A stretch of 39,290 nt of DNA from a virus. The stretch spans positions 1 through 39,290 of the IMG/VR virus record IMGVR_UViG_3300032278_000034; one strand, written 5' to 3'. The notes beneath the pieces were generated by a model. That model was not told where the DNA came from. It did no database searches and saw only the letters and a program-made list of their open reading frames with translations. The first letter of the stretch is position 1. Each line of letters opens with the position of its first letter. The translations under genes and the position numbers were made by a program. Below, one piece after another: positions 7,938 to 33,396 of the stretch.

Positions 7938-8248
7938 TCGAGTCTCTCTCTAACTGTGTCTTGCTGCTGCTGGGTGCGGCGATAAGTTTTATGAGCTTTC
8001 GCTACGCCCACAGATCCAACGAGGCGATCCTCAAGGAACTCCTGGGTCAGCTCAGGGCGCAGAACCGAGTAATTGCCGCTGGAGATCTACAGGTCTACGC
8101 CGGTATGAACCAGGTCGATAACAATGCAGATGAGATCCCCCGCCAGCCCGAACCTGAAACGTCTTTAGAGGAGGCTCAGAGACGGGAGCAGGAGATCGCC
8201 AGAGAGTTCGACCAGATCCAAGGCAACCTTTCACCAAGTCTTGAATAA
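7934..8248 (+). CDS. Small single-pass membrane protein
   Basis: This 104-residue protein has an N-terminal hydrophobic helix (about 6-23, NCVLLLLGAAISFMSFRYAH), then an amphipathic helical region and an acidic, Gln/Glu-rich C-terminus. No cleavage site or lipobox is obvious, so it is probably an N-in anchored protein. Both ends overlap neighbours (ATGA and TAATG). It stands directly before the portal gene. Function is unknown; together with the XhlA-like and acidic proteins it forms a small membrane-linked set inside the head operon. Confidence 0.6.
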   Translation: MIESLSNCVLLLLGAAISFMSFRYAHRSNEAILKELLGQLRAQNRVIAAGDLQVYAGMNQVDNNADEIPRQPEPETSLEEAQRREQEIAREFDQIQGNLSPSLE

Positions 8249-10458
8249 TGCCCATACTCAAAAAAGGTAATGTCACCAGTTATGCCAGCACCGACTTCGG
8301 CGCGGTAGACTTCAAGAAGGACGATACGATCTCTGACTTCGTCCAGGCTCGCTGGGCTTCAAGGGAGCAGCACAGGCAGTCCCTCGAGCGCCAGTGGTAC
8401 TTGAACATTGCCAACTATTTGGGCCAGCAGTATCTGCAGTGGAACCCGGTGACGAAGTCCCTGTTCCTGCCCCGCCAACCTCGGCACAGGGTCAGGGCTA
8501 CGGTCAACAGGCTCATGCCCATGGTCAGGAGGATTATCGCATCGACAGTCCGTCAGCGTCCGCAATGGACGGTGAGTCCTGCCACGGGTGAGTTGAACGA
8601 CCGGATCACAGCGGGTCTCGCGACTGACTATCTGCGGTACTACTGGACCACGCATGGGATGAACGACAAGCTCATCGACCTTCTCACCTGGAGAAGTACG
8701 ACAGGCAATGTGTTCGTCCGTGTGTTCTGGGATGCATTCAAGGGTGACAAGATTGCCGCCGAGCCTGAAGACTTCAGCGGCGAGAAAGCCCGTAGTAAAG
8801 AAGAGAAGAAGAAAGCGAAGAAGGCTGGCGAGGACTATCTCAGAAAGATGGGACTCGCTGGGCCTGAAGACGCTAAGGCTTCAAAGAAGATCGGCGTTGC
8901 CATCGGCGATGTCGATGTGGAGATATGTTCTCCATTTGAGATTGACCCCGACCCGGACGCGACGCGCTGGGAGGATGTCAGCCATCTTATACACACCAAG
9001 GCCAGGAGTATCTCCTATGTGAAAGACCGCTACGGTCTGAAGGATGATGAAGTTCAAGGTGATGACAATGAAACCGTCTCGCGGTTCTTTGAACGCCAAC
9101 TCTCATCCTTGACTGGTCCCTCTAATTTTGGGTCCGTGTCCGCATGGGGAACTGCCGGCCAGCAAGGCTCTGGTGGTACTGTGCTGGTCCATCAGCTTTG
9201 GTGTAGGCCGACTCCCGATTACCCCAGCGGTTACTGGGCGGCGGTTATTGGGGACCGGGTGGTCAGGAAGGGTGAGAACCCCCCTGGCTTCCCGGTCTTC
9301 CCCTATGCCCATATCAGGGAGGTCGCCGTTCCCGGCAGGCTCTGGGGCTCCTGCGTTCTCGAGCAGTGCCTGCCAATCCAGGCGGCTTACAACAGGGCTC
9401 GTTCGCAGATCATAGAACACCTCAACGCCGTCTCCCGTCCGCAGTGGCTCATACCCAAGGGTAGCGGGATATCGAAAACGAGCTTCACCGGAGAGCCGGG
9501 TGAGAAGATCTTCTACACCTACCCGCTCAAGCCGGAGCTGTCGAGGCCGGGAGAGCTTCCCAGCGTCACGCACCAGAATATCAACCAGACCCTCGGCGAC
9601 TTCGAGGATGTCTCGAGCCAGCACGAGGCGTACAAGGGGGCCACGCCAGGCAGGGTGGAGTCGGGTCTTGGTATCGCCCAACTGCAGGAGCAGGACGATG
9701 GCATTCTCGCCCCCGCCTCCATGTCCACCTCGGACGCACTGAGGGACATCGGGACCTGGACGCTACAGATCTCCGCTAAGAAGATCACCGAGGACCGCAT
9801 GATCAAACTCTTCGGTAGCGACCGCACTTTCGATGTGCGCTACTTCAAGGGTGAAGACCTCCTTGGCGGCAGCAGCAGGACAGGGACCAACTACTTCGAT
9901 GTCATGGTCGAGCTGGGGTCATCACTCCCCTCGTCCAAGGGCGCGAGGCAGCAGTTGGGTATCAGCCTTGCCCAGTTCGGCATTCTCAATCCCGGCAAGA
10001 AAGAGGATAGGGAGAAGCTCCTTGAGATCCTCGAGGTGGGCGCTGACCCGACCGATGTATCCCCTGGTCAGATGGACAAGCAGAACGCCCGCAGGGAGAA
10101 CATGGAGATGATCACGCAGCAGGGACAGTACCTGCCTCCATCCTGGCCCTTCGATGATGACGCTCTGCATATCTCGGTACACAGGGAGTTTCAGAAGACT
10201 CCTGAATACTGGCAGATCATCCAGGAAACGGGTGGGGCCGAGAGTCCGATCCACATGATTTTCGAGATGCATATACAGGCTCACGCGGAAAGACTCTCCG
10301 CACAATATAATGTTCCACAAGAAGGCGAAGGTGGTCCAGCAGGCCCAGAGGGGCCGATGGGACCGGCAGGACCGGAGGAGATGGGTGGTCCAGCTCCAGA
10401 GGGTCCGATAGAAGAAGGCGGTGCGCCACTTGAAGGTGAGCCGCCAGTCGGTTATTAA
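8248..10458 (+). CDS. Portal protein with collagen-like tail
   Basis: This 736-residue protein would form the dodecameric ring through which DNA enters and leaves the head. Typical podoviral portal features are present: the helical opening region (ARWASREQHRQSLERQWY, about 33-50), PRHRVRATVNRLMPMVRRII with IASTVRQRPQW, EVCSPFEIDPDPDA-type wing residues at about 226-240, and the long C-terminal helical barrel (QEQDDGILAPASMSTSDALRD). Length matches P22-like portals (about 725). The last ~45 residues are Gly/Pro/Glu repeats of collagen type (GPAGPEGPMGPAGP), an extension that is not part of the core fold. Its place after terminase and before the scaffold is canonical. Confidence 0.92.
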   Translation: MPILKKGNVTSYASTDFGAVDFKKDDTISDFVQARWASREQHRQSLERQWYLNIANYLGQQYLQWNPVTKSLFLPRQPRHRVRATVNRLMPMVRRIIASTVRQRPQWTVSPATGELNDRITAGLATDYLRYYWTTHGMNDKLIDLLTWRSTTGNVFVRVFWDAFKGDKIAAEPEDFSGEKARSKEEKKKAKKAGEDYLRKMGLAGPEDAKASKKIGVAIGDVDVEICSPFEIDPDPDATRWEDVSHLIHTKARSISYVKDRYGLKDDEVQGDDNETVSRFFERQLSSLTGPSNFGSVSAWGTAGQQGSGGTVLVHQLWCRPTPDYPSGYWAAVIGDRVVRKGENPPGFPVFPYAHIREVAVPGRLWGSCVLEQCLPIQAAYNRARSQIIEHLNAVSRPQWLIPKGSGISKTSFTGEPGEKIFYTYPLKPELSRPGELPSVTHQNINQTLGDFEDVSSQHEAYKGATPGRVESGLGIAQLQEQDDGILAPASMSTSDALRDIGTWTLQISAKKITEDRMIKLFGSDRTFDVRYFKGEDLLGGSSRTGTNYFDVMVELGSSLPSSKGARQQLGISLAQFGILNPGKKEDREKLLEILEVGADPTDVSPGQMDKQNARRENMEMITQQGQYLPPSWPFDDDALHISVHREFQKTPEYWQIIQETGGAESPIHMIFEMHIQAHAERLSAQYNVPQEGEGGPAGPEGPMGPAGPEEMGGPAPEGPIEEGGAPLEGEPPVGY

Positions 10459-11283: not shown

Positions 11284-12615
11284 ATGGCTTTTACAGGCAT
11301 GAATCTTACCGATGCTGCGAATGTCCTTAAGACATTCTACATCGGACCCGTAAGGGAGCAGCTCAACCAGGGCAATGTTCTCTTGGCTAACTTGGAGCGC
11401 GATACCAGTCGCACTGCGTTCCGTGGCAAAGAGGCTTACATTCCTCTCCACACCGGACGCAATATAGGTGTCGGAGCCAGGGCTGAAAGTGGAACTCTCC
11501 CCGCTGCTGGGAACCAGGGTTACACCTCGTCCGTGTGGCACATGGCTTACCTTTATGGGCGCGTTGCCCTTACTGGTCCTGCCATTGCCGCTTCGCAAGG
11601 CAGTGAAGGTTCCTTTATTGAGTTGCTCGACAGCGAGATGAAGGGTCTGCTGCAGGATGTCAAGAACGATGTGAACCGCCAGCTCTGGCATGATGGTTCA
11701 GCGTTGCTGACTAACATTTCCACCGGCAGTTCTGGTACGAGTACGACCGTGACGGTCGATTCGACCAAGTTCCTGTCCGCTGGACAGATTGTCGATATCA
11801 AGAAGCGAGCCGACCTTGCTTCTACCACCCTCGGTGACACTCAGACCATCCAGTCTATCACCAGTGATACGGCTTTCGTGATGGGTACGTCTACGACGAC
11901 CGAGGCTGATGAGGGCGTGTATGTTGGTGGAGTTGTCTCTGACGGTACGAGTCGGGAAATGTGGGGTCTTGAGGCTATTGTCTCGGATGCCGATCCCGCC
12001 AACCACGGTACGGAATCTGCCGCTACTCGTCTCGGTCAGATCGACCGTTCGAGCAACTCGTTCTGGAAGGCCAATGTGGTCTCACCTGCTGCGGCGCACG
12101 GCCTGTTGGACGACTCTCTTGTTCAACTGCAAGAGGCTTACGACGAGTCTGATATCGAGGGAGATGCCCAGCCGGGTATCATCCTTACTTCTCACGCTTG
12201 TCGTCGTGAAGTAGCTGGTGCGTTGACCGGCCTTCGTCGTTTCTCCGATCCTGGCAAACTCAAGGGCGGCTGGACTGGCATTGAGTTCAATAACGCCGTC
12301 ATTGTGGCTGACAAGGATGCTTCGACAACGAACGATCCTGCCAATGCCAGTGCTGGTATCTGGGATCTCAGTGATGACGTTTATGTCGCTGGCGACTTCA
12401 ACCGCTTCTACTTCATCGCTCCTGAGTCGATGCACTTCCAGGTGCTTGAGGACTGGCAGTGGATGGACGAAGGCGGTGTCTTGGTTCGCTCCGGTGTCGG
12501 AACGGCTGGTGTGGATGAGTTCGAGGCGACCCTGTTCTCTTACCAGAACCTGGTCTGCACTCGTCCCAACGCCAACACCTTGCTGACGGGCGTCGCGTCC
12601 TCGACCCAGGCGTAA
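11284..12615 (+). CDS. Major capsid protein
   Basis: The 443-residue protein is recognised as an HK97-fold phage major capsid protein of podovirus type. It has the conserved N-arm and E-loop region (YIGPVREQLNQGNVLLANLE, then GKEAYIPLHTGRNIGVGAR at about 54-72), the YLYGRVALTGPAIAAS stretch at about 93-108, the spine helix (LLDSEMKGLLQDVKNDVNRQ) and a C-terminal P-domain (FYFIAPESMHFQVLEDWQW). A threonine-rich insert (about 146-200) may be an extra surface domain. The ribosome site AAAGGAG precedes the ATG. A strong terminator follows, and a weak one precedes, giving room for independent high expression. Confidence 0.93.
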   Translation: MAFTGMNLTDAANVLKTFYIGPVREQLNQGNVLLANLERDTSRTAFRGKEAYIPLHTGRNIGVGARAESGTLPAAGNQGYTSSVWHMAYLYGRVALTGPAIAASQGSEGSFIELLDSEMKGLLQDVKNDVNRQLWHDGSALLTNISTGSSGTSTTVTVDSTKFLSAGQIVDIKKRADLASTTLGDTQTIQSITSDTAFVMGTSTTTEADEGVYVGGVVSDGTSREMWGLEAIVSDADPANHGTESAATRLGQIDRSSNSFWKANVVSPAAAHGLLDDSLVQLQEAYDESDIEGDAQPGIILTSHACRREVAGALTGLRRFSDPGKLKGGWTGIEFNNAVIVADKDASTTNDPANASAGIWDLSDDVYVAGDFNRFYFIAPESMHFQVLEDWQWMDEGGVLVRSGVGTAGVDEFEATLFSYQNLVCTRPNANTLLTGVASSTQA

Positions 12616-13109: not shown

Positions 13110-13682
13110 ATGCCTGTTGCAGCTACAACAATGAAATCGCGGGTGAGGAGGGGATTCCCTGCCAGAGACCTGACAATGCGGAGCGAGTTAGCCACCGAAT
13201 CCGCACCGAAGGCGCTCAGTAGGGGTTTCCTCCGTAACCTTTCCCTGATCGACAGGAGCCTCGAGATGTTCTGGGTTCCCCCCCTGCAGCACTGGGTGCT
13301 GTACAGGGTCGCTCGGAAAGGCCCGTGTCCTTCAGACGATATGCTCATCAAGGTCGCCAATATCATTGGACCCAGCGGCGAGTACCGTGAGCCAGGGGCG
13401 TGGGTCATTGCCCTGCTGCAGAAGATCGACCTCACCCGCAAGTTCAGTTCCGACCCCAAGCGAGCTGGGATGCTGTGGGCTGACCACATGGACAAGATGG
13501 AGGAGAGGCGCATCGAGATAGCGGACAAGAACTTCTCGAACGCCAACGCCGACATGGCGCACGAGCTTCGCAAGTGTTTCATAGGCAAGTGTACCTCTGA
13601 GAACACCAAGTCGATTGTGAGAGAGAAAAAGGGCAGTAAGATCATCTATGGACCCAAGGAGCAGGAAAGGATATTGAATTGA
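13110..13682 (+). CDS. Conserved phage virion-operon protein of unknown function
   Basis: This 190-residue protein has a middle part (FWVPPLQHWVLYRVARKG at about 54-71, then EPGAWVIALLQKIDLTR) that follows a pattern found in small proteins of other podovirus head-tail operons: an aromatic 'W-x-P...W-x-l-y' strand pair followed by 'pgtWii-Lr--D'. The N-terminus is basic and the C-terminus helical. No catalytic motif is visible. Its stop overlaps the TTG start of the adaptor gene. Confidence 0.6.
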   Translation: MPVAATTMKSRVRRGFPARDLTMRSELATESAPKALSRGFLRNLSLIDRSLEMFWVPPLQHWVLYRVARKGPCPSDDMLIKVANIIGPSGEYREPGAWVIALLQKIDLTRKFSSDPKRAGMLWADHMDKMEERRIEIADKNFSNANADMAHELRKCFIGKCTSENTKSIVREKKGSKIIYGPKEQERILN

Positions 13683-14380
13683 GTACCATCACAGGTGCGG
13701 CCTTAACTTCCGACTACACTCCTGCAGACAGGGGTCTCAAACTTGGCGAGATGCTTTCTGTGACCCGCGAGTACCTTGACGACCCCAACGGTCGCAGGCA
13801 CAAACGCAACGTCCTGGTGAGGCATATAAACGCCGCTCAGGCCGACTGCAAGCGGGTGATAGAGCAGGCTGACGACAGCTTCTTCTCTGTGATGGTTGAC
13901 CTGACCGTGGTGAGTGGTGACAACGACTACGAATTTGATCTTCCTGCAGATTTCTCGAAACTTTTGCACATAGAAAAGGTCGTCACATCCGGGACTCCTA
14001 CGCCGGCTGTGCCGATCAACTTTGCTCGCCGACACCCGATAGGCGACGAGCGGTTCCTGCCGGAGGGTCTATCGACTCCCCCGACCTACTATCTCCGAGA
14101 CGACAAGATAGGGATCGTGAAGCCGAGCGACAGCTACACGCTCCGTCTGTATTACTCGAGGGCGCTACCCAGGCTGGACGCTGACGCGGACACTTCGGAC
14201 ATCCCGAGCGACTATCACGACCTGGTCTGCCTGCAGGGGGCGAAGCGTGGCTTCGGTTCTGAGCAGAGGCAGATGCCCCCCGACCTTGAGGGGTTGCGCC
14301 AGGAGCTTACGGCCCAGCTAAGGACTTATGTTGAGGATCGGCAGAGGCAGTATCCGACCTTCGTAGATCTTCTTGAATAG
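13679..14380 (+). CDS. Head-tail adaptor (tail tubular A/gp4-like)
   Basis: This 233-residue protein starts at a TTG (13679) that overlaps the upstream TGA; AGGAAAGG about 10 bases before supports this start. It has an N-terminal helical region (about 20-65) and then beta-rich segments (DNDYEFDLPADFSKLLHIEK, TLRLYYSRALPRL). A conserved C-terminal DIPSDYHDLVCLQGAKRG helix is typical of podoviral adaptors that bind under the portal ring. It is expected to link the portal to the hub encoded next. The exact family cannot be fixed from sequence alone. Confidence 0.72.
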   Translation: MSTITGAALTSDYTPADRGLKLGEMLSVTREYLDDPNGRRHKRNVLVRHINAAQADCKRVIEQADDSFFSVMVDLTVVSGDNDYEFDLPADFSKLLHIEKVVTSGTPTPAVPINFARRHPIGDERFLPEGLSTPPTYYLRDDKIGIVKPSDSYTLRLYYSRALPRLDADADTSDIPSDYHDLVCLQGAKRGFGSEQRQMPPDLEGLRQELTAQLRTYVEDRQRQYPTFVDLLE

Positions 14381-14386
14381 ACAGAT

Positions 14387-16162
14387 ATGCCGACACTGAG
14401 AGCGGGAGCAAGATTCATAGGACAGAACTCGCAGGGAGATGCGAGCGAGCTTCAGCCTGGCGAGGCTGCGGACTGCCTGAACGTGAACCTTGACAAGGGA
14501 ACGATCAAGAAGCGCGACGGGTATTCTCAGGAACTCAACCTGTCAGCCGGCGGGGATATCCAGGGTATCTTCGATTGGGAGCAATCGGACGGAACCCTCA
14601 TGCAACTCATCAAGGCTGGTCAGAAGCTCTACAAGATCACCTACGATGCAGGGACCGGGGTGAAGACTGCCGCAGAGTTGGGAACGAATGCTCTCGTGGC
14701 TGACGGCCTTGCTTCTTTCATAGCCCGCAGGGATCGGGCCTATGTCTGCGATGGCACGAACCTGAAGGTAACGGAAGGGACCAACGTCTACACGGCGCAC
14801 ATCACCCGACCGGGAGCGACCACCACGGCGGTAGCTACGAGTGCGGCTGGCAGCAAGCTGGACGGGGAGTACGAGTACAAGATCACCTTCTACGCTCCGG
14901 CGTGGGGGCAGGAGAGTCTCGCTTCAGAGGCGACCTCGAAAGTAGGGGCGAAGGATACTGGTATCCAACTGACCAATATCCCCGTCAGCTCGGGCGATGC
15001 TCGGGTTACCCAGCGCAGGGTCTACAGGCGCAACATAGCCCAGGGCGAGGTGACCTACCACTATGTGGACACCATCGAAGACAACACCTCGGTAGCTTAC
15101 AACGACAATGTCGGGAACTTCGATACCTCGACTACGGAGATAGCCCCGGTCAGCGCGGACTTCACCGACACGAACTTCGCCTTTATGGTCAACCACCAGG
15201 ATGTGACCTTCCTCGTGAAGAACAACTCCGACAGTCTCTACTTCTCCCGTCCCAACGAGCCGTGGAGCATAGTGAACTTCATACGGGTAGGCGGCGAGGG
15301 TTCAGCGGAGAAGATAACAGGGCTGGCGAGCTACGGCGGGATGCTGATCGTCTTCAAGGAGAAGTCGGTCTGGACCGTTGACGGGCTGACGGAAGCCACC
15401 TTCTTCACCCGCCCGGTGGTCAAGGGGATAGGCTGCGTAGGACATCATTCGATAGTCCAGGTGGACGGGCTTCTTTACTTCTGGGGCAAGGACGGGATCT
15501 ACGGTTTCGACGGTAGCTTGCCCCGGAAGATCTCAGACCCCGTGCAGGATGTGGTCATGGGCAGGAACTACTTGCGGGATCACTTTATCGTCGGGGCCGA
15601 GGACGAGACGAACCAGTCGATCATCTGGAGCTACCCGGCGACAGGCTCCACGGAAAACAACAAGCAGCTCGTGTTCTTCTACGGCAACTCGAAGATGGTT
15701 CAGCGCCCCTCCTGGTCGCCGTGGGACATGGGCAATATCAACTACCTCGCGACGGTAACGACCACCAACCTGACGAAGCTCAGAAGGATATGGGTAGGGA
15801 CCGATGGCGGTATTGTCGGTGAGGTTGCCGCAGGTCAGCTTGCGGACATCTCCGCGAGTCCTGTCTTCAGGTGGAGGACGGGCAAGTGGGACGGGAAGCT
15901 CCCCGAGTTCGACAAGGCGTGGTCGGCGGTGTCCTTCGAGCTGGTGCCTGATACCGACACGCATATCGAGGTTCGCTACTATCGCAACTCCGATACGGGG
16001 CATGAGTTTCTCGACTCGATATCCCCAACGGATGCCACGCACCACCTGCGGCTGAGTGAGAGGGCGAGAGACCTGACGCTGGAGTTGTACCAGGCTGAGA
16101 GCCAGTCGGTGGAGGTGACCTCGTTCACCCTGACTGGGGCTGGGGCAGGGAGGCCGAGCTAA
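14387..16162 (+). CDS. Beta-propeller tail hub/stopper protein
   Basis: This 591-residue protein begins 'GQNSQGDASELQPGEAADC', the usual start of podoviral hub proteins that carry many short repeats. It continues with propeller-like blades (for example LIKAGQKLYKI, RDRAYVCDGTNLKV, YGGMLIVFKEKSVWTVDG, GLLYFWGKDGIYGFDG). A fibronectin-like part at about 140-240 (EYEYKITFYAPAWGQ) interrupts the blades. The order after the adaptor is like P22 gp4 then gp10, or T7 gp11 then gp12. It probably plugs the portal channel and forms the tail hub. The stop overlaps the next ATG (TAATG). Confidence 0.75.
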   Translation: MPTLRAGARFIGQNSQGDASELQPGEAADCLNVNLDKGTIKKRDGYSQELNLSAGGDIQGIFDWEQSDGTLMQLIKAGQKLYKITYDAGTGVKTAAELGTNALVADGLASFIARRDRAYVCDGTNLKVTEGTNVYTAHITRPGATTTAVATSAAGSKLDGEYEYKITFYAPAWGQESLASEATSKVGAKDTGIQLTNIPVSSGDARVTQRRVYRRNIAQGEVTYHYVDTIEDNTSVAYNDNVGNFDTSTTEIAPVSADFTDTNFAFMVNHQDVTFLVKNNSDSLYFSRPNEPWSIVNFIRVGGEGSAEKITGLASYGGMLIVFKEKSVWTVDGLTEATFFTRPVVKGIGCVGHHSIVQVDGLLYFWGKDGIYGFDGSLPRKISDPVQDVVMGRNYLRDHFIVGAEDETNQSIIWSYPATGSTENNKQLVFFYGNSKMVQRPSWSPWDMGNINYLATVTTTNLTKLRRIWVGTDGGIVGEVAAGQLADISASPVFRWRTGKWDGKLPEFDKAWSAVSFELVPDTDTHIEVRYYRNSDTGHEFLDSISPTDATHHLRLSERARDLTLELYQAESQSVEVTSFTLTGAGAGRPS

Positions 16163-16779
16163 TGCCAGCGACCTACGGAAGATCATCAGTCCTGAGAATG
16201 GACCCTGCGATAAACCACGAGATCGACAAGCTCTACCAGATGATCCAGGCCCAGATCGGACCCGACCAACTGGATATGCCGGCGGTACGGCGGGAGATAG
16301 GCAAGCAGGTTACGAAGAGCGAGTCCCGTATACTTCGGGATGTCATCGATGGGGATACGAGCTTCACCAAGATCTCAGTTGGAGATCCCCTTATCGAGCC
16401 GGGCAATACGCTCAACCCGATCTATGCGATTCGGCAGACAACGGTGTCGATGGTTCTCTCGAGCCTGGCTGCGGGAGCGCAGGCCACGGCGACCAGTGCT
16501 GACCTGACAGACTTCGTGAACGCTCCAGCGGAAGACATCGTCTATATATCGGCTGCACCGACCGCCACGGTGACGAACGAGGAGTATGTTTCCTTCCGTC
16601 CTCATGTAGACAAGAACGGCACGGTATCGGTGGTTGCGACGAACAATCACGGGTCAGTTGCATATTCTGGAACTTTTAATGTCGTAGTTATGGGTGTCAT
16701 CTTTGAGAATAGGACACAGTTAGTGACGGCCCAGACAGCGGGGACTACCGCTACGGCGCTCGGTCCTTCAGCTTCATAG
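16162..16779 (+). CDS. Putative minor tail/virion protein
   Basis: This 205-residue protein has a helical N-terminus (about 12-60: NHEIDKLYQMIQAQIG) and a beta-rich, Ala/Thr-rich C-terminal domain from about 85. Residues 130-175 (AAPTATVTNEEYVSFRPHVD...) look like an Ig- or adhesin-like strand set. The layout of a helical attachment end followed by a beta domain fits a small tail appendage or hub-binding protein. No family is recognised. Confidence 0.55.
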   Translation: MPATYGRSSVLRMDPAINHEIDKLYQMIQAQIGPDQLDMPAVRREIGKQVTKSESRILRDVIDGDTSFTKISVGDPLIEPGNTLNPIYAIRQTTVSMVLSSLAAGAQATATSADLTDFVNAPAEDIVYISAAPTATVTNEEYVSFRPHVDKNGTVSVVATNNHGSVAYSGTFNVVVMGVIFENRTQLVTAQTAGTTATALGPSAS

Positions 16780-16788
16780 GAATAAAAT

Positions 16789-17706
16789 ATGCCGCATATA
16801 CCAGGTTCCCCCAAGCAAGGACACGAAGAAGATCGGCAAGGGCCATTCCCTCTTGTCGATGTCGGTGAAGGTATAGACCTCGGCGCACCTCCTGCCCCGC
16901 CTGCGGGAGGCAGAGCGGAGAGATTCCCCGCCTTGCAGCAGGAACTTGGTATCGGGGATCTGCGGGTAGGCGAAGTCCCGCTGGCAGAAGCGGAGTTGAA
17001 TCTCAGGCGTAGGCAGGATGCGGAGAGGAGGCGAGGACAGGGACTCGACGCACTTCAAGGGGCTCTCAACGAGATTGGCACAACAGAGGGTGAGTTTGCT
17101 GCTCGAGAGGTCGCACTCCAGAGGCTCAGGGGCGGTGGGCTTGGAGCTGGTGCTTTGCGGGGTCAGCTTGCAGCGTCTCAGGAATCCGCTCTTCGTGCGA
17201 TGTCGGACCAGTTCGCCCAGCGTGGAGTTGGTGGTGGAGTACCGGCTCTCGGACTGGCGCAGGCTCAGCGGACGGGAGCTATCCAGGCTGCTGGAACAGA
17301 GGCCGCGTTCAGGGAGAACCTGCAGCGGTCAGCCCTTCAGGACATCGAAGGCATGAACCAGGCGATTGGGCAACGCAGGCTTGCCGCGCAGGATCTTCTC
17401 CAGCGTTACCTCGGCGAATGGGAACTGCCGCCGATGGACTTCTCTGGGATGGCTATTGTTCCTGAAGACAGGACACAACTTGTTGGGGGTAGCTTGCCCG
17501 GCCAACCTGGAGCTGGCGATGGTGAAGCGGTTGATTTTGGAGAACCTAATACTTGGGAACAAGGAGGCAATCTCAACATGGGAAGGGTTCCTCCAGACGG
17601 CCACGAGTTTGCAGGTTGTGTTTATTACCCCGGCAACATCAATGATCCACCAAGGTATGTATGTCCGGAGGGTAATTTCCGAGCAGATGAGCGTAGGGGG
17701 GGATAG
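16789..17706 (+). CDS. Helical virion protein, possible ejection-associated
   Basis: In this 305-residue protein, residues 40-215 are an Ala/Gln/Arg-rich helical region (LQQELGIGDL, EAELNLRRRQDAERRR, QGLDALQGALNEIG and on) with coiled-coil character and Gly-rich breaks (RGGGLGAGALRGQL). The C-terminal ~80 residues are Gly/Pro-rich and include a possible small domain with two cysteines (FAGCVYY and YVCPEG). It begins the row of genes that resemble the internal, ejected proteins of podoviruses. Function is inferred from position and helix content. Confidence 0.55.
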   Translation: MPHIPGSPKQGHEEDRQGPFPLVDVGEGIDLGAPPAPPAGGRAERFPALQQELGIGDLRVGEVPLAEAELNLRRRQDAERRRGQGLDALQGALNEIGTTEGEFAAREVALQRLRGGGLGAGALRGQLAASQESALRAMSDQFAQRGVGGGVPALGLAQAQRTGAIQAAGTEAAFRENLQRSALQDIEGMNQAIGQRRLAAQDLLQRYLGEWELPPMDFSGMAIVPEDRTQLVGGSLPGQPGAGDGEAVDFGEPNTWEQGGNLNMGRVPPDGHEFAGCVYYPGNINDPPRYVCPEGNFRADERRGG

Positions 17707-17708
17707 AG

Positions 17709-18530
17709 ATGCCAAGCCAAAGAGGACAACGAAACCTGCAGCCGGCAATGCCCGTGAAAATGAGGGGTCCATACGGGACTCTCATCGGGTCGCCCATAGC
17801 GAATGTTCTCGCAGCGAAGAAGTCGCAGGAAGAAGCGGAAGCAGCCGACGACTTCGGCGGTCTTGGGGCTCTTCTCGGCACTATACTTGGAGGCCCAACA
17901 GGAGCTGCCTTCGGTGGTGCAATAGGCGGGATGGCAAGCTCACCTGGTCGTAGTGGGCAGCTTCCCATCCAGATACCAGGCGCGACAGGCATGGGGGCGG
18001 CACTCCTCGGTCAGGACGAACCCCCCGAAGCACCTGGTTGGCAGCAGGCGGCAGGGATAGCGAGTCAGGCGATAGGTCCGTTGCTCAACTCCCTGGGTCC
18101 GCAGGCAGCACCTCCCGTGGATCCGATGAGCCTTCCGTCAGGAGCGGGTGGCCCACCGTCTATGAGCCAATGGGGTGGCTACCAGCAACCGTCTGCTCTG
18201 CCGGCAAGCGTACCGCAGCCCCTGCCCCAGACGAGGGTTTCACCTTCGTTGTTCCCTGGCGGTTCAAACTTCGTTCCCGCAGGTGGAGGGTACGCACCGC
18301 AGGCACCTGCCCCACCGCGGCAGCCGTCTATGAGCGAATTGCCGGGAGCAACCTACCAGCAACCGTCTGCTCTGCCGATGGCCGCACGGACCCCGTTCCC
18401 GCAAGCCCCGAGTGGGCTCATACCGGGTGCGCTGGCGAACTTCAGCGTGTCCGACTTCCTGAACCCAGGTGTCCAGACACCGGACATAGTCCAACTGATC
18501 CAACAACAGATACTCGCAGGGATGGCATAG
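17709..18530 (+). CDS. Glycine-zipper, proline-rich ejection-type protein
   Basis: This 273-residue protein has a glycine-zipper membrane segment (about 49-76: GLGALLGTILGG then AAFGGAIGGMA), which can insert in a bilayer. The rest is Pro/Gln/Ala-rich and disordered, with two copies of a segment containing PSM-S then YQQPSALP (about 150-165 and 205-223). The C-terminus is helical (DIVQLIQQQILAGMA). Small zipper proteins upstream of two long helical proteins match the order of podoviral ejection proteins (as with T7 gp14, gp15, gp16), so it may form the membrane part of the DNA-translocation channel. That role is inference. Confidence 0.6.
   Translation: MPSQRGQRNLQPAMPVKMRGPYGTLIGSPIANVLAAKKSQEEAEAADDFGGLGALLGTILGGPTGAAFGGAIGGMASSPGRSGQLPIQIPGATGMGAALLGQDEPPEAPGWQQAAGIASQAIGPLLNSLGPQAAPPVDPMSLPSGAGGPPSMSQWGGYQQPSALPASVPQPLPQTRVSPSLFPGGSNFVPAGGGYAPQAPAPPRQPSMSELPGATYQQPSALPMAARTPFPQAPSGLIPGALANFSVSDFLNPGVQTPDIVQLIQQQILAGMA
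18155..18377. repeat. Direct repeat within the zipper protein gene
   Basis: A 25-base identical sequence beginning CTACCAGCAACCG occurs at 18179-18203 and 18353-18377. Each copy is preceded by CCGTCTATGAGC (near 18157 and 18324). It encodes the two YQQPSALP copies and shows an internal duplication of about 170 bases. Confidence 0.8.
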
Positions 18531-20495
18531 ATGCCCAGAGGTGAAAGGCAGACTACAGGTACAGCTCAGGCGCTCCTCGGTGCGAAGCAGATCGCAGCAC
18601 AGGAGAGGGCGAGCAAGAGGGCCACGGTAGCGGACTATGTTAAGACGGGCGTAGGCGCGTTGAAGTCGGTGGGTGATTACCTGCAGCAGAAGCAGTCGCT
18701 TGAGCAGAACCAGGACAAGATCAACTTGGAGAAGAGCCTGTTCTCCGCTCAGTACGGTGGCCCAGCGGAGCAGGAGGCGACAAGAGAGCGGAAGAGGCAG
18801 TTAGAGTTAGCGAACATCGGCTTGGCAGGAGCGCAGACTAAAGTCGCCCAAGGAACCGTCGAGGCTGACATTGCTGCGAAAAAGGCATTGGCCGCAAAGG
18901 CGGGATCGGAAGCCAAGATTAGCGAAGTCACAGCCCGATTCGCTGAACAGTTCGCCGGGGGCAAGTTGGAACTCGCCAAAGTTGAAAAGGACAAAATCCT
19001 TCAGGACATCGAATCGTCCAAGGCTGGGATTACAGATGCAGCGGAGGGAAGAAGGCTCGACGGTCTGAGACTGGAAGTTGAGAAGACCTACAGGGAAGCC
19101 CTGATGGCCGACATGAAGGAGAAGGGTCTTCTCTCTAAGAGGCAGATGAAGATCTTCGAGAAGAGGTACAAGGATGAGACTGATCCCGCCAGGCGCGTAG
19201 CGATGATGACGGAGTTCGAGAAACGAGCGGCTGAGTCGGGAGCCAGGAAGGCCGAACTTGATGTGGAGTTCGCCGAAGGGACTCTGGAGAACCGGATTGC
19301 CGACATAGCCCTGGACCTGAAGGGGAAGAGAAAGGATGTGAAGCGAAAGGGTTTCGAGAACGACACCGCCAAGATCGTAGCGCACTACGCTCGACTTCGG
19401 GAAACTTCTAGTATCGACAATGTGATAGCCCACACAGATCTTCTCGACCAGCAAATGAAGACTCTTATATCGAAGGCGAAAGATGATAAGGAGCGGTTGG
19501 CACTTGAGGGTCGAAGGGTCAAGATCGCAGAGGTTCACGGCAGGGCTGTTCTCGACAAGATGGAGAAGGATGGAACCCTTGCGGAAAAAGACTTTAACCT
19601 CCTCAAGGAAAAGTGGGAGACGACAAAAGATCCCGTCAAGCGTGAGGCGATGCTGTCACCCTTTGACAAGAAGATGCGGGAAGCCCAACTGAAAACGGAG
19701 GAGGCGAGGGAGGAGGGGATAAAGGTGACTACAGCATTGGCAGGGGTTCAGGTAGAAGCCGCCAAGACCGCACTCGAAAAGCAGAAGAAGTGGGCCATCG
19801 CCGGCTTCAGTGAAGAACAGGAAGCGGATGCGAAGGTGCAGATCACCACACTCGAACACACGAAAAACGAGTACCCAAGCCTCGCAAAGATTGCTGGTGC
19901 AGCACAGAAAGAATTGAGGGGCGGTGAATTACAGGGTGAGAATATCCGCTTGATGAGAGATATGACGGCCCTGTTCCGTGACGACAGCTCAATGACTGGA
20001 GAGAAACTGGCTACGCCCGAACAGCTCTCGAAATCGAACCTCAACGGACTCGCCGAGGAGGGTGGCGGGATCGTCGGTGAGGGGCTCCTCGACACATTGA
20101 AGGGAACCACCCTTGTAGCCAAGCTGGGTACTGTGTGGCACAACTTAGCCGAAAAGAATCGTCCATCCTTTGTCAAGTGGCTCAAAGAAGAATGGCCTGA
20201 AGGTCCGAAGAAGATGCGGTCGTTGGCGGCTTTAAGAAAGTCAGCAACGGAACGATTCTTTCATCGTCAGAGTATTTTTAAAGCGGGTAAACGCGCCTTG
20301 GGCCTCGGTGGGCTGACAACGCAGATGGAATACCATGCGGAAAGAAAATTCCTTCTCGGCCTGGCTGATCACATGGACGACCCCGGCTGGATAGAGAGAG
20401 GCGAACCGACCCTGGAGTTCACCCCAGATGTGATGAGGTCGTTGGATATGTCACCGCCATCCGAACGGGTGAGAAACTTGCCACCGGAGAGGTAG
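18531..20495 (+). CDS. Long coiled-coil ejection-type virion protein
   Basis: This 654-residue protein is almost wholly helical and highly charged between about residues 10 and 480, with no enzyme motif. It carries two diverged copies of one module: residues about 188-262 (EALMADMKEKGLLSKRQMK...) and about 337-411 (AVLDKMEKDGTLAEKDFNLLK...), each with a 'DPxxRxAMxxxFxK' centre. The C-terminal ~150 residues are less charged. Length, helical build and place between the zipper protein and the giant fit the second internal protein of podoviral ejectosomes. No family is named with certainty. Confidence 0.65.
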   Translation: MPRGERQTTGTAQALLGAKQIAAQERASKRATVADYVKTGVGALKSVGDYLQQKQSLEQNQDKINLEKSLFSAQYGGPAEQEATRERKRQLELANIGLAGAQTKVAQGTVEADIAAKKALAAKAGSEAKISEVTARFAEQFAGGKLELAKVEKDKILQDIESSKAGITDAAEGRRLDGLRLEVEKTYREALMADMKEKGLLSKRQMKIFEKRYKDETDPARRVAMMTEFEKRAAESGARKAELDVEFAEGTLENRIADIALDLKGKRKDVKRKGFENDTAKIVAHYARLRETSSIDNVIAHTDLLDQQMKTLISKAKDDKERLALEGRRVKIAEVHGRAVLDKMEKDGTLAEKDFNLLKEKWETTKDPVKREAMLSPFDKKMREAQLKTEEAREEGIKVTTALAGVQVEAAKTALEKQKKWAIAGFSEEQEADAKVQITTLEHTKNEYPSLAKIAGAAQKELRGGELQGENIRLMRDMTALFRDDSSMTGEKLATPEQLSKSNLNGLAEEGGGIVGEGLLDTLKGTTLVAKLGTVWHNLAEKNRPSFVKWLKEEWPEGPKKMRSLAALRKSATERFFHRQSIFKAGKRALGLGGLTTQMEYHAERKFLLGLADHMDDPGWIERGEPTLEFTPDVMRSLDMSPPSERVRNLPPER

Positions 20496-20499: not shown

Positions 20500-23400
20500 A
20501 TGCCATTCGGGATGCCAACAGGCGGTGCGCTTTCAGGCATAAGGGGTCTGCAGCGTGGTGGGATAGGCGCAGAAGAGGAGCCCGGCTTTCTCCTCAGTCT
20601 CGCCCTGGCTCTCGACGCGCCCCGCAACTGGGCGTGGGGTGGCACAAGCAAGAAGCGAGCTACGGGCTGGGATCTCCTGCGGAAGATGGGCATCCGTGAC
20701 AAGCCGGGCAAGTTCGACCCTGTGGATGTCCTCGCCTTCGGGCTTGAGGTTGCGGGCGATCCGCTGACCTATCTTGGTGGGTTGGGTGGGCTGACGAAGG
20801 CCGGCAAGCTCGCGTCTAGTCTCGGCAAATCGGTAGGATCCAGGGCGGCTTCCACGGCGGCTATAAAGACTGCTCTGGAGGGTGCTGAGAAGTTCAACAT
20901 CAGGCAACTTCTGAAGGCTACGAAAGAGGTGGAGAAGGGTGGTGATCTTAAGAAGATAATGGGGGGGCTTGTAGACGCAGAGGGGAAGGCGGTCAAGCTC
21001 ACGGCAGGCGAGGCCACACGCTTCGAGAGGGGCGTGACGGCGGTCAAGCGAGCCCATGAGGCCCAGGCCAGGACAAAGACTCTAAAGACGCAACTGAACG
21101 AACTGGGAGCGTCTGAGATACTCGCTAAGAGCTGGAAGGCAGCGGCTCAGATGGATCTTCCGCAACGGAAGCTGTTGTCGCTGACGATCCCGTTCACCGA
21201 CATAGAAAAGGTGCTGATTAAGGGTGCGCCTGTCGTCGGTGCGATCCAGGCTACGGGGCAGGTTCTGGGCAAGTTCCCCCCCATCGCGGCAACGGGTCGT
21301 CTTATCTCGAACGCCTTCCAGCGTAGCGATGTTCTGCAGCCGTATATGCACGAGTACAAGCTCCAGGCGAGACAGATCCTGCGGGAGGGGGTCGAGAAGG
21401 AGACGGCCCTGGGTAAGGAGGCCGACGAGCTTTTCGGGTTAGAGCAGGCTCACCAGATCCAGGCGACAGAGAGGTACGCCCAGAAGGAGTACGGCAAGTC
21501 CGCTTCGGAGCTGACGGCAGAAGAGATACAGAAGAGATTCGATGACACGCTTCAGCGGTCCTATGTCACCGAAGCGGACTATACGAAGGAACAGTTCTTT
21601 GACGACATCCTGACGGGCAGGGAAGCCTATGGGATGGACCCCGTTATCCTCAAGAGGAAGAAAGAGCTTGAAGCGAATATAGTCGTTGAGGTTGAGAAGA
21701 TACGGGGCGCGTCGAGGAAGAAGTGGGCCGACGAACTCTACCGGCGGCTGGTGGGTCAACGGACGCGCAACAAGGAGAGGTCAGCAATACTCAAGGAGAG
21801 GGGGAGGTCGCTGTCTACACTGAAGACCCCTGCGATTGTCCAAATAGAGAAGCGTCTCTCGCAACTCCAGGGCAGATTCAGTGAGCGGCTCGATAACCTT
21901 GCGGTATCTGCCAAGAAGGACATTGAGACAGAGGTCGATAAACTTCTGGGGCTTCGGAAGGAACTTGACGATGCGGAGTTCGGGCTTGCAAAACAGAAGG
22001 TGGATCGAGACACCTTCCAGTCCGCACTTGACGAGGCGGTCCCTGGTTACAGATCCGTACTCAACGAGAAGGGAACTGCGTTCAGTCGGTTTGAGAAGAT
22101 CGCCGACGATGCCAAGTCGCTTGAGGATATCGCTGAGTCAAGAGGTCTGAGCGTCAAGGACTTGAGGGGGGAAGCCCAGGAGAACTTCAGGCAACTGAAG
22201 AAATCCAAGAGCAATGTCGAGAGATTGAAGGGCAATCTGAGTAAGGCCGAGGGCGATATAGAAGCTCAGATCGGGAGAATAGAAAAGAAGATGGGCGAGG
22301 ACGGCGCGTGGTCCGTCCCAACCGATGTGACGGCGACCATCACCTTCGCCGGCTACGACACCTTCGGCTCTGGTTTTACCCCTGGCTTCTTAAGACCCCA
22401 GGTTCTTATCGAGAATGACCCTGCAGTCATCAAGCACCTCAAGAAGAAGTATGGAAAAGACATCAAGGCCCGAGACATTGTGAACGAGCGTAAGGCTCTA
22501 ATCGAGGACATCAAGAAAGCGAAGAAGAACGACCCCAACCACATCTTCCACGCTTCACCTGAATGTCAGGCTTGTTCTCCAGCCGGCTTAAAAGCGCACA
22601 AAACCGGCCTGCGACCGCAGGACTACGAGACGGCAGAGGCAATCATCGACATCATAAAAGGCTCAGAGCCGCCCGTTGTGACGATTGAGAACCACTGGAA
22701 CTATACGACCAGGACGGTGACGAAGGGGAAGCATAAGGGGTATCAGCCGACCACGGAGATCAAGAGGGCTCTGGAGGAGGCTGGCTATGAAGTCGATATT
22801 AAGAAGATCCAGGCAGCGGACTATGGGTCTCCGAGTACACGCGAACGCCTGATCCTTCGGGCGGTAAAGCAAGAGGATCTTATAGTCGGTGGCGTAAAGA
22901 AGTCCTTTGACGAAGTATACCCGCTTCCTCAACCGACCGGCCAGGGTGACTGGTGGTCGGCTATCGCCCCGTTTATGCACGAGGCGAAGGATACTAAATT
23001 CGCTTTGGCTGCAACCAAGGTGGGTAGTAAAAGATTAGAGACTGACATCAAGGATCTGATTGCGGCTGGCAAGCTCTCTGAGCCGACCATGGAGGCTCCC
23101 GTCATCTATATGGGGCGGGATGCCATAGAGAGGTTTCCGAAGGGACACCCAAGAGCTGGAGAGGTAAAGCGGAACAGGGGCGGTATCAGGAATGCCGGGA
23201 CACCTGACAATCCCCAGGCTTCGCCGGCTCTTCTCAGGGGTAAAGCATCCGCAAGGGTCATCTTCCCTGACGGCCAGGGCGGTTATTACGCAAAAAGCCT
23301 CTCCCCCAGGCAGCTATCCGCTCTCATGGGATTTGGCGATGAGATGCCGATGGCTCTGCCCAAAGGCATAAGCTCAAAGGATGCAGCAGACATCTTGGGT

Positions 23401-25896
23401 AACGGGATGGCGGCAGCGACCACCAGAAATACTATCCAGCACCTTATCGAGCAGAGGATGGCTGCGGGGATTGTTCCCAAAATCGGAAAGAAGAGCAAGT
23501 TCCAGACTGCCGCCACCGAAGGGCAGCGGGAAAGTCTCAAGGCTCGATTCAGGCTCCGTGAGGCAGAGCTTAAGAAGAACCTCGAGGTCAAGAGGCTGGA
23601 GGGCGAGGTCGATAGGCTCCGTAACGAGTTGAGTCCAGACGACAAGATGCTCAGGCAGACAGCGGACGAGAACGCCCTCGCCGCCATCCCCGAGTTCAAG
23701 GAAATCAACGCCAATCCGCTCAAGGGAATTGACGAAACTCTTCCGAAGAAGGTGAAGGGTCGCCTCGCACAAAAACTCCAGAAGGCTGTCCATGATAATG
23801 ACGGGATGATCCAGCGGCTGGACGAGAACCTGGCTGACAACGATGCGTATGTGTCCCTGCTCCGTCCTGAATCTCAAGCCCTTGTGAAGCACCTCGACCA
23901 GGAGGTTGGAGAGCTTCTTGCGCGTCGCGTGGCTGTGGGTGCGACCAAGGAAGGGACCGTCATGGCTGCTCGCCTGCAGTCGATCACGAAGAACTACGCA
24001 GAGCGTGTGCTGACCTCTGATGCCCGGAAGTATATTGCCGCTCGAAGGGCTACCGATGGCAAGGGTGGCACGATGCTTGACCAGTATCACCGCCACATGG
24101 GCAGGTACTCGAAGAGTGCTATGTCGGCGAAGACAGGCGGGGATATACCGAGGCTCGACAGGTGGAGGGAGGAGTTTACCAGTCAGGTGAACAAGTTCTT
24201 CGAGAAGCTCCCAGGCGACCGCCCAGCTCAGTGGTTCAACAAGGACTTCTCGGTCACCTATCCCGGCAAGTACATCGGAGACGAGCGCAGCGTACTCAAC
24301 GCCACCTTCGTCACATCCCTGGTGAACGGCAAGGGCATCGTAAAGAAGATCCTCGAAAAGAACGCCCACGACTATGTGACCCTTGGCGACTTCTACATGG
24401 AGCATGGCATCCACCGTGTCACGGTCAAGGGCAAGGAGATCGTGCTGGGCGACAGCAAGGCCGCGAGAAAGGCCATGAAGGATGCGGGGCTGCTCGACAA
24501 GGGTATCCGCAACTCGCTTGCCGACGAGATACGGGGCGTGACCGTCAAGCTCGTGGACTCCGACGACCTGTCCCAGCTCGGCGAGATCTACGACAAGATG
24601 GTCCTGGGTCCGTTGCGCTGGTCCCTGACCCGTCCGTGGCTCCCGTTCCACCTTCGCAACTTCTCGACCAACATCTTCCTCAACTGGCTCGGCGGTGTCT
24701 CGAACCCGAAGTATTACAAGATGGCTGCAAGAGCTGTCTTTGAAAAAGACCCCAGTGAGTTAAAGAGGCTCACGGATATCGGTGTCCTCACGGGTGGCTG
24801 GTCCAGGGAGGCTGCGCGGGAACTCACCGAGCCGGGGCGAATCGACCTGTGGGCGAGGATGGAGAAGTGGTTCAAGAACAAATACCCCAAGGGCTCGAAG
24901 GCATGGAAGCAGTACACCAGCTTCGCCGAGGACATGGGCAGGGCGGCTCACTACTACGGGAAGAAGGCTGACGGCCTGACCGACTTCGAGGCTCTCGAGT
25001 CCGTCAACAAGTACCTGCTCGACTATTCGGACCTGACCAAGTTCGAGCGCCGTTACGGCAAGCGGATGTTCATGTTCTACAACTGGACCCGCAAGATGAT
25101 CCCCATGCTGACGAAGGAGTTCATCAGCAACCCCAGCAAGATGGCGGCTCTCACCAGGGGATCGGTGCAGCCCAGCCTGCTCAGGCCGGAGGGTCTCCCT
25201 TCGTACATCAAGCAGTCCTTCGCCCTGCCATTGCCGTGGAAGGACAAGCAGGGACGAGAGCAGTTCATCACCACCTTCGGCTCTCCCATCGAGGAGTTCC
25301 GCAAGTTCGACGTTTCGCAGCGTGAGGGTGGGCTGGCCGGCATAGGCTCCGAGCTGGCGAGGACTATCATCGGGCAGATGACACCGCCGCTCAAGCAGGC
25401 TGCTGAGATCGCGGCTGGCAAGGACTTCTTCTACCGCAAGCCTATCCAGGAATCGGACAGGGTGAAGCAGATGTTCGGGCTTGAGAAGCTCCTGCCCGGC
25501 CTGCGTACCGATGTTCTCAAGAGCGGGAAGACGAGGCTTAGAGCGGACCCGGATATGCTCTACGCCCTGCGTCAGTCGCCGTTCTCCAGGGTCATCTCCA
25601 CCCTGCAGAAGCTCGGCGACCCTGACCGTGACATTTCCGACAAGCTCTTCGCCACCCTGAGCGGCATCAACGTCGCGAGGTTCTACAAGGAGACGCAGGC
25701 TCCACGAAGCCTGGTCGATATGCTCAAGCGGAAGCTGAAGCTCGAGATCCCCGAAGGGATGGTCCGCAAGTTCGAGACGATCTACCCGACCGAGGCCGGC
25801 AAGAAGAACGCCGAGGTCATGCGGATGATGGATATTCTCCGTTCTGCGGAGAAGCGTCAGAGGTCGGTGTATCAGACTTCTGGTGGTAAGCTCTAG
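20500..25896 (+). CDS. Giant polyvalent ejection-type protein with embedded C5 cytosine DNA methyltransferase
   Basis: This is a 1798-residue protein, the largest here. Residues 30-100 are like the starts of other giant phage internal proteins (LSLALDAPRNWAWGG, AGDPLTYLGGLGG). Coiled coils fill about 420-610. A complete C5 methyltransferase domain follows: motif I FAGYDTFGSGF at 617-627, motif IV SPECQACS with catalytic Cys689, motif VI ENHWNY at 730-735, motif VIII DYGSPSTRERL at 774-784, a target-recognition stretch, and motifs IX/X with MGFGDEMP and GNGM at about 967-970. More coiled coil comes next. The C-terminal part has RPWLPFHLRNFSTN at 1378-1391 and YLLDYSDLTKFERRYGKRM near 1505-1523, which is typical of large polyvalent proteins of phages. 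PEC replaces PPC in motif IV, a known variant. It is probably carried in the virion and ejected with DNA. Confidence 0.85.
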   Translation: MPFGMPTGGALSGIRGLQRGGIGAEEEPGFLLSLALALDAPRNWAWGGTSKKRATGWDLLRKMGIRDKPGKFDPVDVLAFGLEVAGDPLTYLGGLGGLTKAGKLASSLGKSVGSRAASTAAIKTALEGAEKFNIRQLLKATKEVEKGGDLKKIMGGLVDAEGKAVKLTAGEATRFERGVTAVKRAHEAQARTKTLKTQLNELGASEILAKSWKAAAQMDLPQRKLLSLTIPFTDIEKVLIKGAPVVGAIQATGQVLGKFPPIAATGRLISNAFQRSDVLQPYMHEYKLQARQILREGVEKETALGKEADELFGLEQAHQIQATERYAQKEYGKSASELTAEEIQKRFDDTLQRSYVTEADYTKEQFFDDILTGREAYGMDPVILKRKKELEANIVVEVEKIRGASRKKWADELYRRLVGQRTRNKERSAILKERGRSLSTLKTPAIVQIEKRLSQLQGRFSERLDNLAVSAKKDIETEVDKLLGLRKELDDAEFGLAKQKVDRDTFQSALDEAVPGYRSVLNEKGTAFSRFEKIADDAKSLEDIAESRGLSVKDLRGEAQENFRQLKKSKSNVERLKGNLSKAEGDIEAQIGRIEKKMGEDGAWSVPTDVTATITFAGYDTFGSGFTPGFLRPQVLIENDPAVIKHLKKKYGKDIKARDIVNERKALIEDIKKAKKNDPNHIFHASPECQACSPAGLKAHKTGLRPQDYETAEAIIDIIKGSEPPVVTIENHWNYTTRTVTKGKHKGYQPTTEIKRALEEAGYEVDIKKIQAADYGSPSTRERLILRAVKQEDLIVGGVKKSFDEVYPLPQPTGQGDWWSAIAPFMHEAKDTKFALAATKVGSKRLETDIKDLIAAGKLSEPTMEAPVIYMGRDAIERFPKGHPRAGEVKRNRGGIRNAGTPDNPQASPALLRGKASARVIFPDGQGGYYAKSLSPRQLSALMGFGDEMPMALPKGISSKDAADILGNGMAAATTRNTIQHLIEQRMAAGIVPKIGKKSKFQTAATEGQRESLKARFRLREAELKKNLEVKRLEGEVDRLRNELSPDDKMLRQTADENALAAIPEFKEINANPLKGIDETLPKKVKGRLAQKLQKAVHDNDGMIQRLDENLADNDAYVSLLRPESQALVKHLDQEVGELLARRVAVGATKEGTVMAARLQSITKNYAERVLTSDARKYIAARRATDGKGGTMLDQYHRHMGRYSKSAMSAKTGGDIPRLDRWREEFTSQVNKFFEKLPGDRPAQWFNKDFSVTYPGKYIGDERSVLNATFVTSLVNGKGIVKKILEKNAHDYVTLGDFYMEHGIHRVTVKGKEIVLGDSKAARKAMKDAGLLDKGIRNSLADEIRGVTVKLVDSDDLSQLGEIYDKMVLGPLRWSLTRPWLPFHLRNFSTNIFLNWLGGVSNPKYYKMAARAVFEKDPSELKRLTDIGVLTGGWSREAARELTEPGRIDLWARMEKWFKNKYPKGSKAWKQYTSFAEDMGRAAHYYGKKADGLTDFEALESVNKYLLDYSDLTKFERRYGKRMFMFYNWTRKMIPMLTKEFISNPSKMAALTRGSVQPSLLRPEGLPSYIKQSFALPLPWKDKQGREQFITTFGSPIEEFRKFDVSQREGGLAGIGSELARTIIGQMTPPLKQAAEIAAGKDFFYRKPIQESDRVKQMFGLEKLLPGLRTDVLKSGKTRLRADPDMLYALRQSPFSRVISTLQKLGDPDRDISDKLFATLSGINVARFYKETQAPRSLVDMLKRKLKLEIPEGMVRKFETIYPTEAGKKNAEVMRMMDILRSAEKRQRSVYQTSGGKL

Positions 25897-33036: not shown

Positions 33037-33396
33037 ATGAAAACAATATGGTCTATCGAGCGCATCCCAATGACGCTCAACAAATACATTCGGTCTCATT
33101 GGGCTGTCCGCAAGAAAGAGGTGACGACCTGGAGGCTGCTGCTCAGGTCGCAGCACCAGGCTCCTGTGCTGGTGGAGGGCAAGGTCAAGCTCGTGATCAA
33201 GGTCTTCCGCTCTCGCCGGCAGGATCCCGACAACGCGGTAGGGTCCATGAAGCCGCTGATAGATGCGATCAACAGGGAGGGGTGGCTGGTGGACGACGAC
33301 CTGGCCCACCTCGAGCTTCATGTAAGAGAGTTCAAATCGAAGAGAGTTGATGAACACACGGAGATAGAATGGGAACTTCTGAAGGAGAACGATTAA
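33037..33396 (+). CDS. rusA: RusA-family Holliday junction resolvase
   Basis: This 119-residue protein has the family features in order: a 'P-T-N-x-Y-x-R-x-HW' opening (PMTLNKYIRSHW, 11-22), DPDN at 63-66, the lysine in SMKPLIDAI (about 70-78), and the late DDD at 86-88. These acidic residues and lysine make the metal site that cuts Holliday junctions. Length is normal. No Shine-Dalgarno is visible, because the T-tract of a terminator ends only 5 bases before the ATG; a later ATG at 33070 is in frame but would lose the opening residues. It ends in the AAGGAGA that serves the next gene. Confidence 0.87.
   Translation: MKTIWSIERIPMTLNKYIRSHWAVRKKEVTTWRLLLRSQHQAPVLVEGKVKLVIKVFRSRRQDPDNAVGSMKPLIDAINREGWLVDDDLAHLELHVREFKSKRVDEHTEIEWELLKEND

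Follow-up and report, generated by a model that had tools for sequence, protein, structure and literature searches.

A C5 cytosine methyltransferase domain embedded in a giant ejection-type protein of a phage with a P22-type portal

Analysis of an IMG/VR virus record revealed that a C5 cytosine DNA methyltransferase domain is embedded in a giant protein of 1798 residues from an environmental phage. The whole record, 39,290 bases, was analysed and is referred to here as the window. The protein is encoded by a single uninterrupted frame at 20500-25896 on the plus strand, and it was classed as ejection-type, polyvalent-like and methylase-bearing on the basis of its frame, its family, its gene order and the match of its C-terminal model. 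The domain itself covers residues 616-979 (22345..23436, plus strand). The original prediction that a C5 cytosine methyltransferase lies within this protein was confirmed by PF00145, phrog_116 and phrog_363 and by a predicted model resembling M.HhaI. As for its role, we regard it as an evenly balanced proposition that the giant protein is packaged in the virion and ejected, and that its methylase modifies the incoming phage DNA.

Motifs and predicted fold of the methyltransferase domain

An HMMER check of the kind suggested with the original prediction aligned PF00145 to residues 616-979 over positions 7-319 of the 324 in the profile, with an E of 9.7e-16 and a score of 58.5 bits where the cut-off is 22; a six-frame search returned the same stretch. 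Two PHROGs, both named DNA methyltransferase, also matched the giant protein (phrog_116, 4e-17; phrog_363, 5.5e-15). Judged by profile scores, these similarities are far above chance. PF00145 was the sole Pfam family detected at E 0.001 in the 1798 residues, and the protein contains one recognised enzymatic domain together with a conserved C-terminal domain that carries no assigned activity. Among the matches listed (40 of 283 phage records), the domain shared 25-30% identity with phage C5 methylases. Its GC3, 0.64, lies inside the span of five further genes of this phage (0.61-0.78).

Residues 597-1010 were aligned with 34 phage methylases from viral contigs, which were drawn from 76 phmmer matches, and the strings of the domain were given the motif numbers I-X of the C5 methylase family. 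All of these strings lie on the plus strand. Alignment with M.HhaI and relatives placed motif I at FAGYDTFGSGF (616-626; 22345..22377), where Asp620-Thr621 stands for Gly-Gly, and motif II starts at Glu638. The alignment further placed motif IV at SPECQACS (686-693; 22555..22578), which contains the catalytic Cys689; motif VI at ENHWNY (730-735; 22687..22704), with Glu730 and Asn731; motif VIII at DYGSPSTRERL (774-784, also placed at 779-784; 22819..22851), with Arg781 and Arg783; and the stretch from motif IX, LSPRQLSALMGF (934-945), to motif X, GNGMAA (967-972), at 23299..23415. The coordinates originally predicted for motifs IV, VI and VIII were exact, whereas motif I was off by one residue and motifs IX and X, given as about 950-970, were located only loosely. 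Between motifs VIII and IX lie 149 residues (785-933; 22852..23298), in agreement with the predicted insert of target-recognition size before motif IX. C5 methylases have their target-recognition domain in this interval, and the stretch is expected to be that domain; part of it has low model confidence.

A column was called near-invariant when at least 33 of the 34 phage methylases agreed, and the domain keeps 15 of the 20 such columns and departs at five. The kept residues include Cys689, Ser693, Glu730, Asn731, Asp774, Arg781, Arg783, Gly967 and Asn968; the catalytic set, consisting of Cys in motif IV, Glu-Asn in VI, Arg-x-Arg in VIII and Gly-Asn in X, is present throughout. The departures are Asp620 and Thr621 in motif I, His732 in motif VI, Gly946 in motif IX (Pro in the relatives) and Met970 in motif X (Val in the relatives). 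At the motif I pair, 33 of the 34 relatives have Gly and one has a gap, and the window domain retains the FAG; the Val of ENV, which is replaced by His732, is present in all 34. The distance from motif I Phe616 to motif II Glu638 is 22 residues, the same as that from Phe18 to Glu40 in M.HhaI. The enzyme had been predicted to be complete, and the nearly full-length profile match and the retained catalytic residues speak for this part of the prediction, whereas the lost Gly-Gly pair and the exchange of the ENV Val speak against it. Alignment and model together indicate a divergent enzyme that is probably working, and doubt about its activity arises chiefly from the altered SAM loop.

The AlphaFold2 model of residues 597-1010 showed a mean pLDDT of 67 and a pTM of 0.71. 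Ten-residue blocks scored 74-95 from motif IV to just beyond motif VIII and about 64 near motif I, and some within the putative target-recognition region scored below 40. Foldseek matched the model to M.HhaI with an E of 3e-14, and VIA-align superposed the two with a Z-score of 24.2 and 3.6 Å over 303 aligned residues of the 327-residue chain. The structure prediction proposed as a check on the domain thus gave an M.HhaI-like fold; because the alignment behind the model consisted of C5 methylases, this fold match is not independent of the sequence match.

A phmmer search of the PDB with the domain at E 0.01 returned a single match, 8yf3 (3e-4), which is CmoX, a DNA cytosine C5-carboxymethyltransferase of phage S-B43, with a fold similar to that of the window domain (Z-score 21.4). 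As described in the available text of PMC12783734, CmoX has Arg350 at the position of M.HhaI Asn304, and this Arg contacts the carboxy group of carboxy-SAM. The corresponding residue in the window domain is Asn968. A carboxymethyltransferase reading, which the 8yf3 match had raised, was dropped for this reason, and use of ordinary SAM and plain methylation would be expected of the domain.

The giant protein family and its genomic setting

The window encodes a P22-like portal protein at 8248..10458 on the plus strand (PF16510, 2.5e-16; phrog_156, 1.5e-36), 10 kb upstream of the giant gene, and a major capsid protein at 11284..12615 on the same strand (phrog_14242, 3.1e-59). An integrase is encoded at 35126-36157 on the minus strand (PF00589, 1e-19; phrog_1, 5.3e-54), and the phage, which has a P22-type portal, is therefore probably temperate. 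By its size of 1798 residues and its place after the portal, the giant protein is a large protein among the late virion genes. The GC3 of its gene was 0.64-0.75 and then rose to 0.84 across the C-terminal 468 codons, which suggests a mosaic gene. Two short viral contigs of 11.8 and 11.4 kb (L172 and L173) encode major capsid proteins 93% and 91% identical to that of the window, and each contig stops soon after the capsid gene, before any giant gene.

The phage also encodes a second C5 methylase, which is split between two frames on the plus strand. Motifs I-VIII lie in a 178-aa ORF at 33369-33905 (PF00145, 7.4e-26), and motifs IX and X were recognised by eye at the C-terminus of a 430-aa ORF at 33397-34689 (phrog_1008, DNA methyltransferase, 6.8e-18), which is read in a different frame and overlaps nearly all of the shorter ORF. 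The split into subunits resembles that of M.AquI, as given in the available text of PMC3404938. Alternate-frame ORFs of this kind also occur within the methylase genes of two other phages, Vibrio phage 1.003.O and podovirus ctgrD200; there, by eye, the alternate frame holds motif IX but not motif X.

To judge from tblastn of the C-terminal part against 50,697 phage records at E 1, the giant protein has two relatives there, those of Cellulosimicrobium phage DS1 (1e-6) and podovirus ctEqG8 (7e-4). Matches of the DS1 protein extended the family to Microbacterium phage Shocker and to Arthrobacter phages, Jasmine and Adat among them. By blastp, the window protein directly matched DS1, ctEqG8, Jasmine and Adat, and gave no direct match to Shocker. 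The relatives are 1743-1803 residues long, with ctEqG8 at 1106, and the Adat protein is 96% identical to that of Jasmine. Alignment of five sequences (window, DS1, Shocker, Jasmine and ctEqG8) revealed an N-terminal family motif, LAFGLEVAGDPLTYLGGL (residues 78-95; 20731..20784, plus strand), in which F80, V84, D87, P88, T90 and Y91 are invariant and DPxTY is common to all five. A conserved C-terminal family domain was located at residues 1372-1670 (24613..25509, plus strand) from alignments, related loci and core helices with a pLDDT of 82-95. The giant proteins of Jasmine, Adat, DS1 and Shocker share this domain and the DPxTY motif with the window protein, and in all four phages an endolysin or peptidoglycan endopeptidase gene comes next after the giant gene. 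The Jasmine relative is gene 29; in the available text of PMC5513430, electron microscopy identifies Jasmine as a podovirus, and its genes 11-29 are suggested to encode virion structure and assembly.

With a profile built from the C-terminal domain, 116 relatives were detected in viral contigs. The 80 among the matches listed include near-identical copies (e.g., L027-L029 and L067/L068), and in seven of these 80 the giant ORF runs off a contig end (L009, L011, L024, L039, L048, L059 and L066). The PHROG of the Jasmine protein, phrog_36598, was matched by 21 of the 29 relatives scanned among these 80, while the window protein did not match it; by sequence, the window protein is therefore a distant member of the giant-protein family. 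A search of the phage collection at E 1 returned nothing for its N-terminal part (residues 1-606). No close relative was found in viral_contigs, which was scanned for exact peptides of the whole protein, of the methylase domain and of the C-terminal part, or in genome_contigs, which was scanned for those of the whole protein; such scans may omit records very near the window. On either side of the methylase domain, where coiled-coil flanks had been predicted, residues 301-600 and 1021-1080 contain many charged residues and little Pro or Gly.

Portal genes were sought, with a relaxed limit of E 0.01, in the records of listed relatives that were at least 38 kb long (40 of 80). A phrog_156 portal was present in all 40 records, in 39 at 2.8e-9 or better and weakly in one (G002, 0.002), and it lay on the same strand as the giant gene in every case; several of these records are near copies, so they do not amount to 40 independent cases. 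The giant gene was directly downstream of the portal in 31 records, with a median distance of 9,676 bases (range 3,933-19,130), and the corresponding distance in the window is 10,042 bases. In the remaining nine, the order of portal followed by giant gene fits only if the record is circular or permuted. Ejection-protein genes of P22-type phages occupy the part of the genome downstream of the portal. Judged from this gene order, the family is that of the giant proteins of P22-portal phages. The ejection-type nature that had been predicted for the carrier was supported by this position and by its relationship to Jasmine gene 29. The portal match was in two pieces in G024 and G059; in the latter, which is the record of L066 (G059:C1:15361-17138), one piece contained one TAG and two TAA codons, and this interruption may reflect gene decay, errors in the sequence or a reassigned code.

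The methylase was seen only in the window protein. PF00145 was found inside none of the giant proteins of the 80 listed viral relatives (seven with a partial giant gene), in a search that was positive in 10 of 14 control genomes, and in none of the four from DS1, Shocker, Jasmine and ctEqG8; the giant proteins of DS1, Shocker and Jasmine matched no Pfam family at E 0.001. The record of L066 has a PF00145 match elsewhere, outside the part of the giant gene that is present. A whole-Pfam scan at E 0.001 of 60 of the 80 relatives, from which 20 near-identical, truncated or short ones were excluded, gave a single match, a transglycosylase SLT domain in L012. This domain occupies residues 1072-1156 of a 1171-aa giant frame (L012:2227-5739), near its C-terminus. 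Of the 31 records among the 80 that were searched for SLT, 10 had a match, which lay in the giant frame in L012 and in separate frames of 137-231 aa in the other nine. The PHROGs, searched with 29 of the 80 relatives and the window protein, added one weak tail-fibre match in one of the 29. As far as Pfam and the PHROGs indicate, the family is mostly without recognisable cargo. A scan with the methylase domain yielded 129 relatives, with 80 loci among the matches listed; phmmer matched 76 of these 80, and all 76 matches lay in ORFs of 289-799 aa, two of which were cut by a contig end. Within the sequences examined, fusion of the methylase to the giant protein thus appears only in the window, and the methylase looks like accessory cargo. 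The methylase here and the transglycosylase in L012 suggest that this ejection-protein family may take up unrelated enzyme cargo.

Proposed role and alternative explanations

We infer that the giant protein would be a late product that enters the head close to the portal and leaves it with the genome, the full C5 methyltransferase domain lying in the central cargo region of an ejection-type protein. Upon entry, the ejected methylase would mark target-sequence cytosines on the incoming phage DNA ahead of phage gene expression, and this early marking would blunt host restriction. A broader reading, to which we give somewhat less than even weight, is that a C5 methylase delivered from the virion by a polyvalent-like ejection protein marks the entering genome before any expression and constitutes a cytosine counterpart of DarB that arose independently within the ejection apparatus of short-tailed phages. 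Selection for function cannot be inferred from the fusion, which is a single example. Additionally, C5 methylases are slow enzymes, so that the protein could shield naked incoming DNA only if it arrived in many copies or if restriction were slow. The second C5 methylase encoded by the phage also counts against the proposal. If the proposal is true, the enzymes that phages carry into cells as protein extend to cytosine-C5 methylases, and a packaged methylase that modifies DNA on entry before transcription becomes open to a direct test.

The methylase might instead act in the producing cell, where a giant protein made late would methylate freshly replicated phage DNA no later than packaging, so that progeny would already be protected; the occurrence of the protein in virions would then be incidental. 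Virion genes are expressed late, and progeny methylation is made plausible by the second C5 methylase of this virus, which lies near a replication-type gene. However, a free-standing methylase would suffice for that task, such as those represented by the 76 listed relatives of the domain, and fusion to an ejection-type protein suggests delivery; we consider action in the producing cell rather unlikely. Alternatively, the domain may have lost all or nearly all catalysis and may now contribute DNA binding or structure to the ejection protein. Asp620-Thr621, His732, Gly946 and Met970 replace near-invariant residues, and the model falls below a pLDDT of 50 in places between motifs VIII and IX, both of which are in line with such a loss. 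Decay would nevertheless be expected to remove some of the residues of catalytic chemistry, which are retained; DNMT3 enzymes tolerate Ala-Thr at the same two motif I glycine places, and the spacing between the motif I Phe and the motif II Glu is that of M.HhaI. Loss of catalysis therefore seems to us improbable, though it deserves some weight.

The fusion itself could in principle be a metagenome assembly artefact in which a free methylase gene was joined into the giant gene. The source is an IMG/VR record, exact-peptide scans gave no second copy, and no relative with the insert was seen. Such a chimera would need two in-frame joins within one 5.4-kb open frame, and GC and GC3 shift just gently over the borders of the domain; on the grounds of the two joins and of GC3 continuity, it was set aside as very improbable. 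The reading that we prefer remains that of a packaged and ejected protein whose methylase would act on the incoming DNA.

Comparison with polyvalent proteins, DarB and free-standing methylases

To place the C-terminal part among known proteins, we consider its predicted structure. The model of residues 1011-1798 is mostly helical, with a mean pLDDT of 60.6. Foldseek comparison with BFVD, a collection of predicted viral structures, gave 26 matches at E<=0.001, the best at 3.1e-9. Nine of the 26 bear the name 'large polyvalent protein associated domain-containing', three others those of ART-PolyVal-like, zeta toxin and helicase/UvrB, and 11 are unnamed; a further match belongs to Arthrobacter phage GurgleFerb, whose giant protein is related by sequence. 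Weaker matches included one named LPD38 (E 0.005) and one named LT_GEWL (E 0.012). In the available text of PMC5512222, LPD38 is reported solely from phage-type polyvalent proteins. The polyvalent matches are geometrically weak, with TM-scores of about 0.2-0.35 and large rmsd values. No Pfam family matched residues 1011-1798 even at E 10, and hence no LPD domain was found by sequence; an LPD domain is frequent but not obligatory in phage-type polyvalent proteins. A fold search of the PDB with the same model returned nothing at E<=0.001, and no solved ejection protein was matched. For the C-terminal end, the predicted resemblance to polyvalent proteins has evidence on both sides: the nine named matches of the model favour it, whereas the low TM-scores and the lack of a Pfam LPD domain do not. 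The model weakly suggests that the giant protein may work like a polyvalent protein, and we do not file it as a proven member.

P1 DarB had been named as a precedent. According to the available text of PMC5512222, the P1 head contains DarB, an adenine methylase fused to a helicase, which shields P1 DNA in cis against type I restriction. In the same source (Iyer et al. 2017), the methylase-helicase polyvalent proteins are mostly EcoKI/TaqI-like N6-adenine enzymes, nearly always combined with an SF2 helicase and LPD36. The word 'cytosine' occurs once in that available text, within the reference list, and the available text of a jumbo-phage review deals with cytosine methylases separately from polyvalent proteins (PMC7824862). 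In the open-licence literature, we found no packaged cytosine-methylase counterpart of DarB. The analogy is thus a fair precedent, although the enzymes differ.

Like DarB, the window protein carries a DNA methylase within a large phage protein. Unlike DarB, its enzyme is a C5-cytosine methylase, with PF00145 alone and neither an N6-adenine methylase nor an SF2 helicase at E 0.001. With M.HhaI and other free-standing PF00145 enzymes, the domain shares the predicted fold, the motif order and the catalytic residues. In contrast to these free enzymes, it sits inside a giant virion-type protein and has an altered SAM loop.
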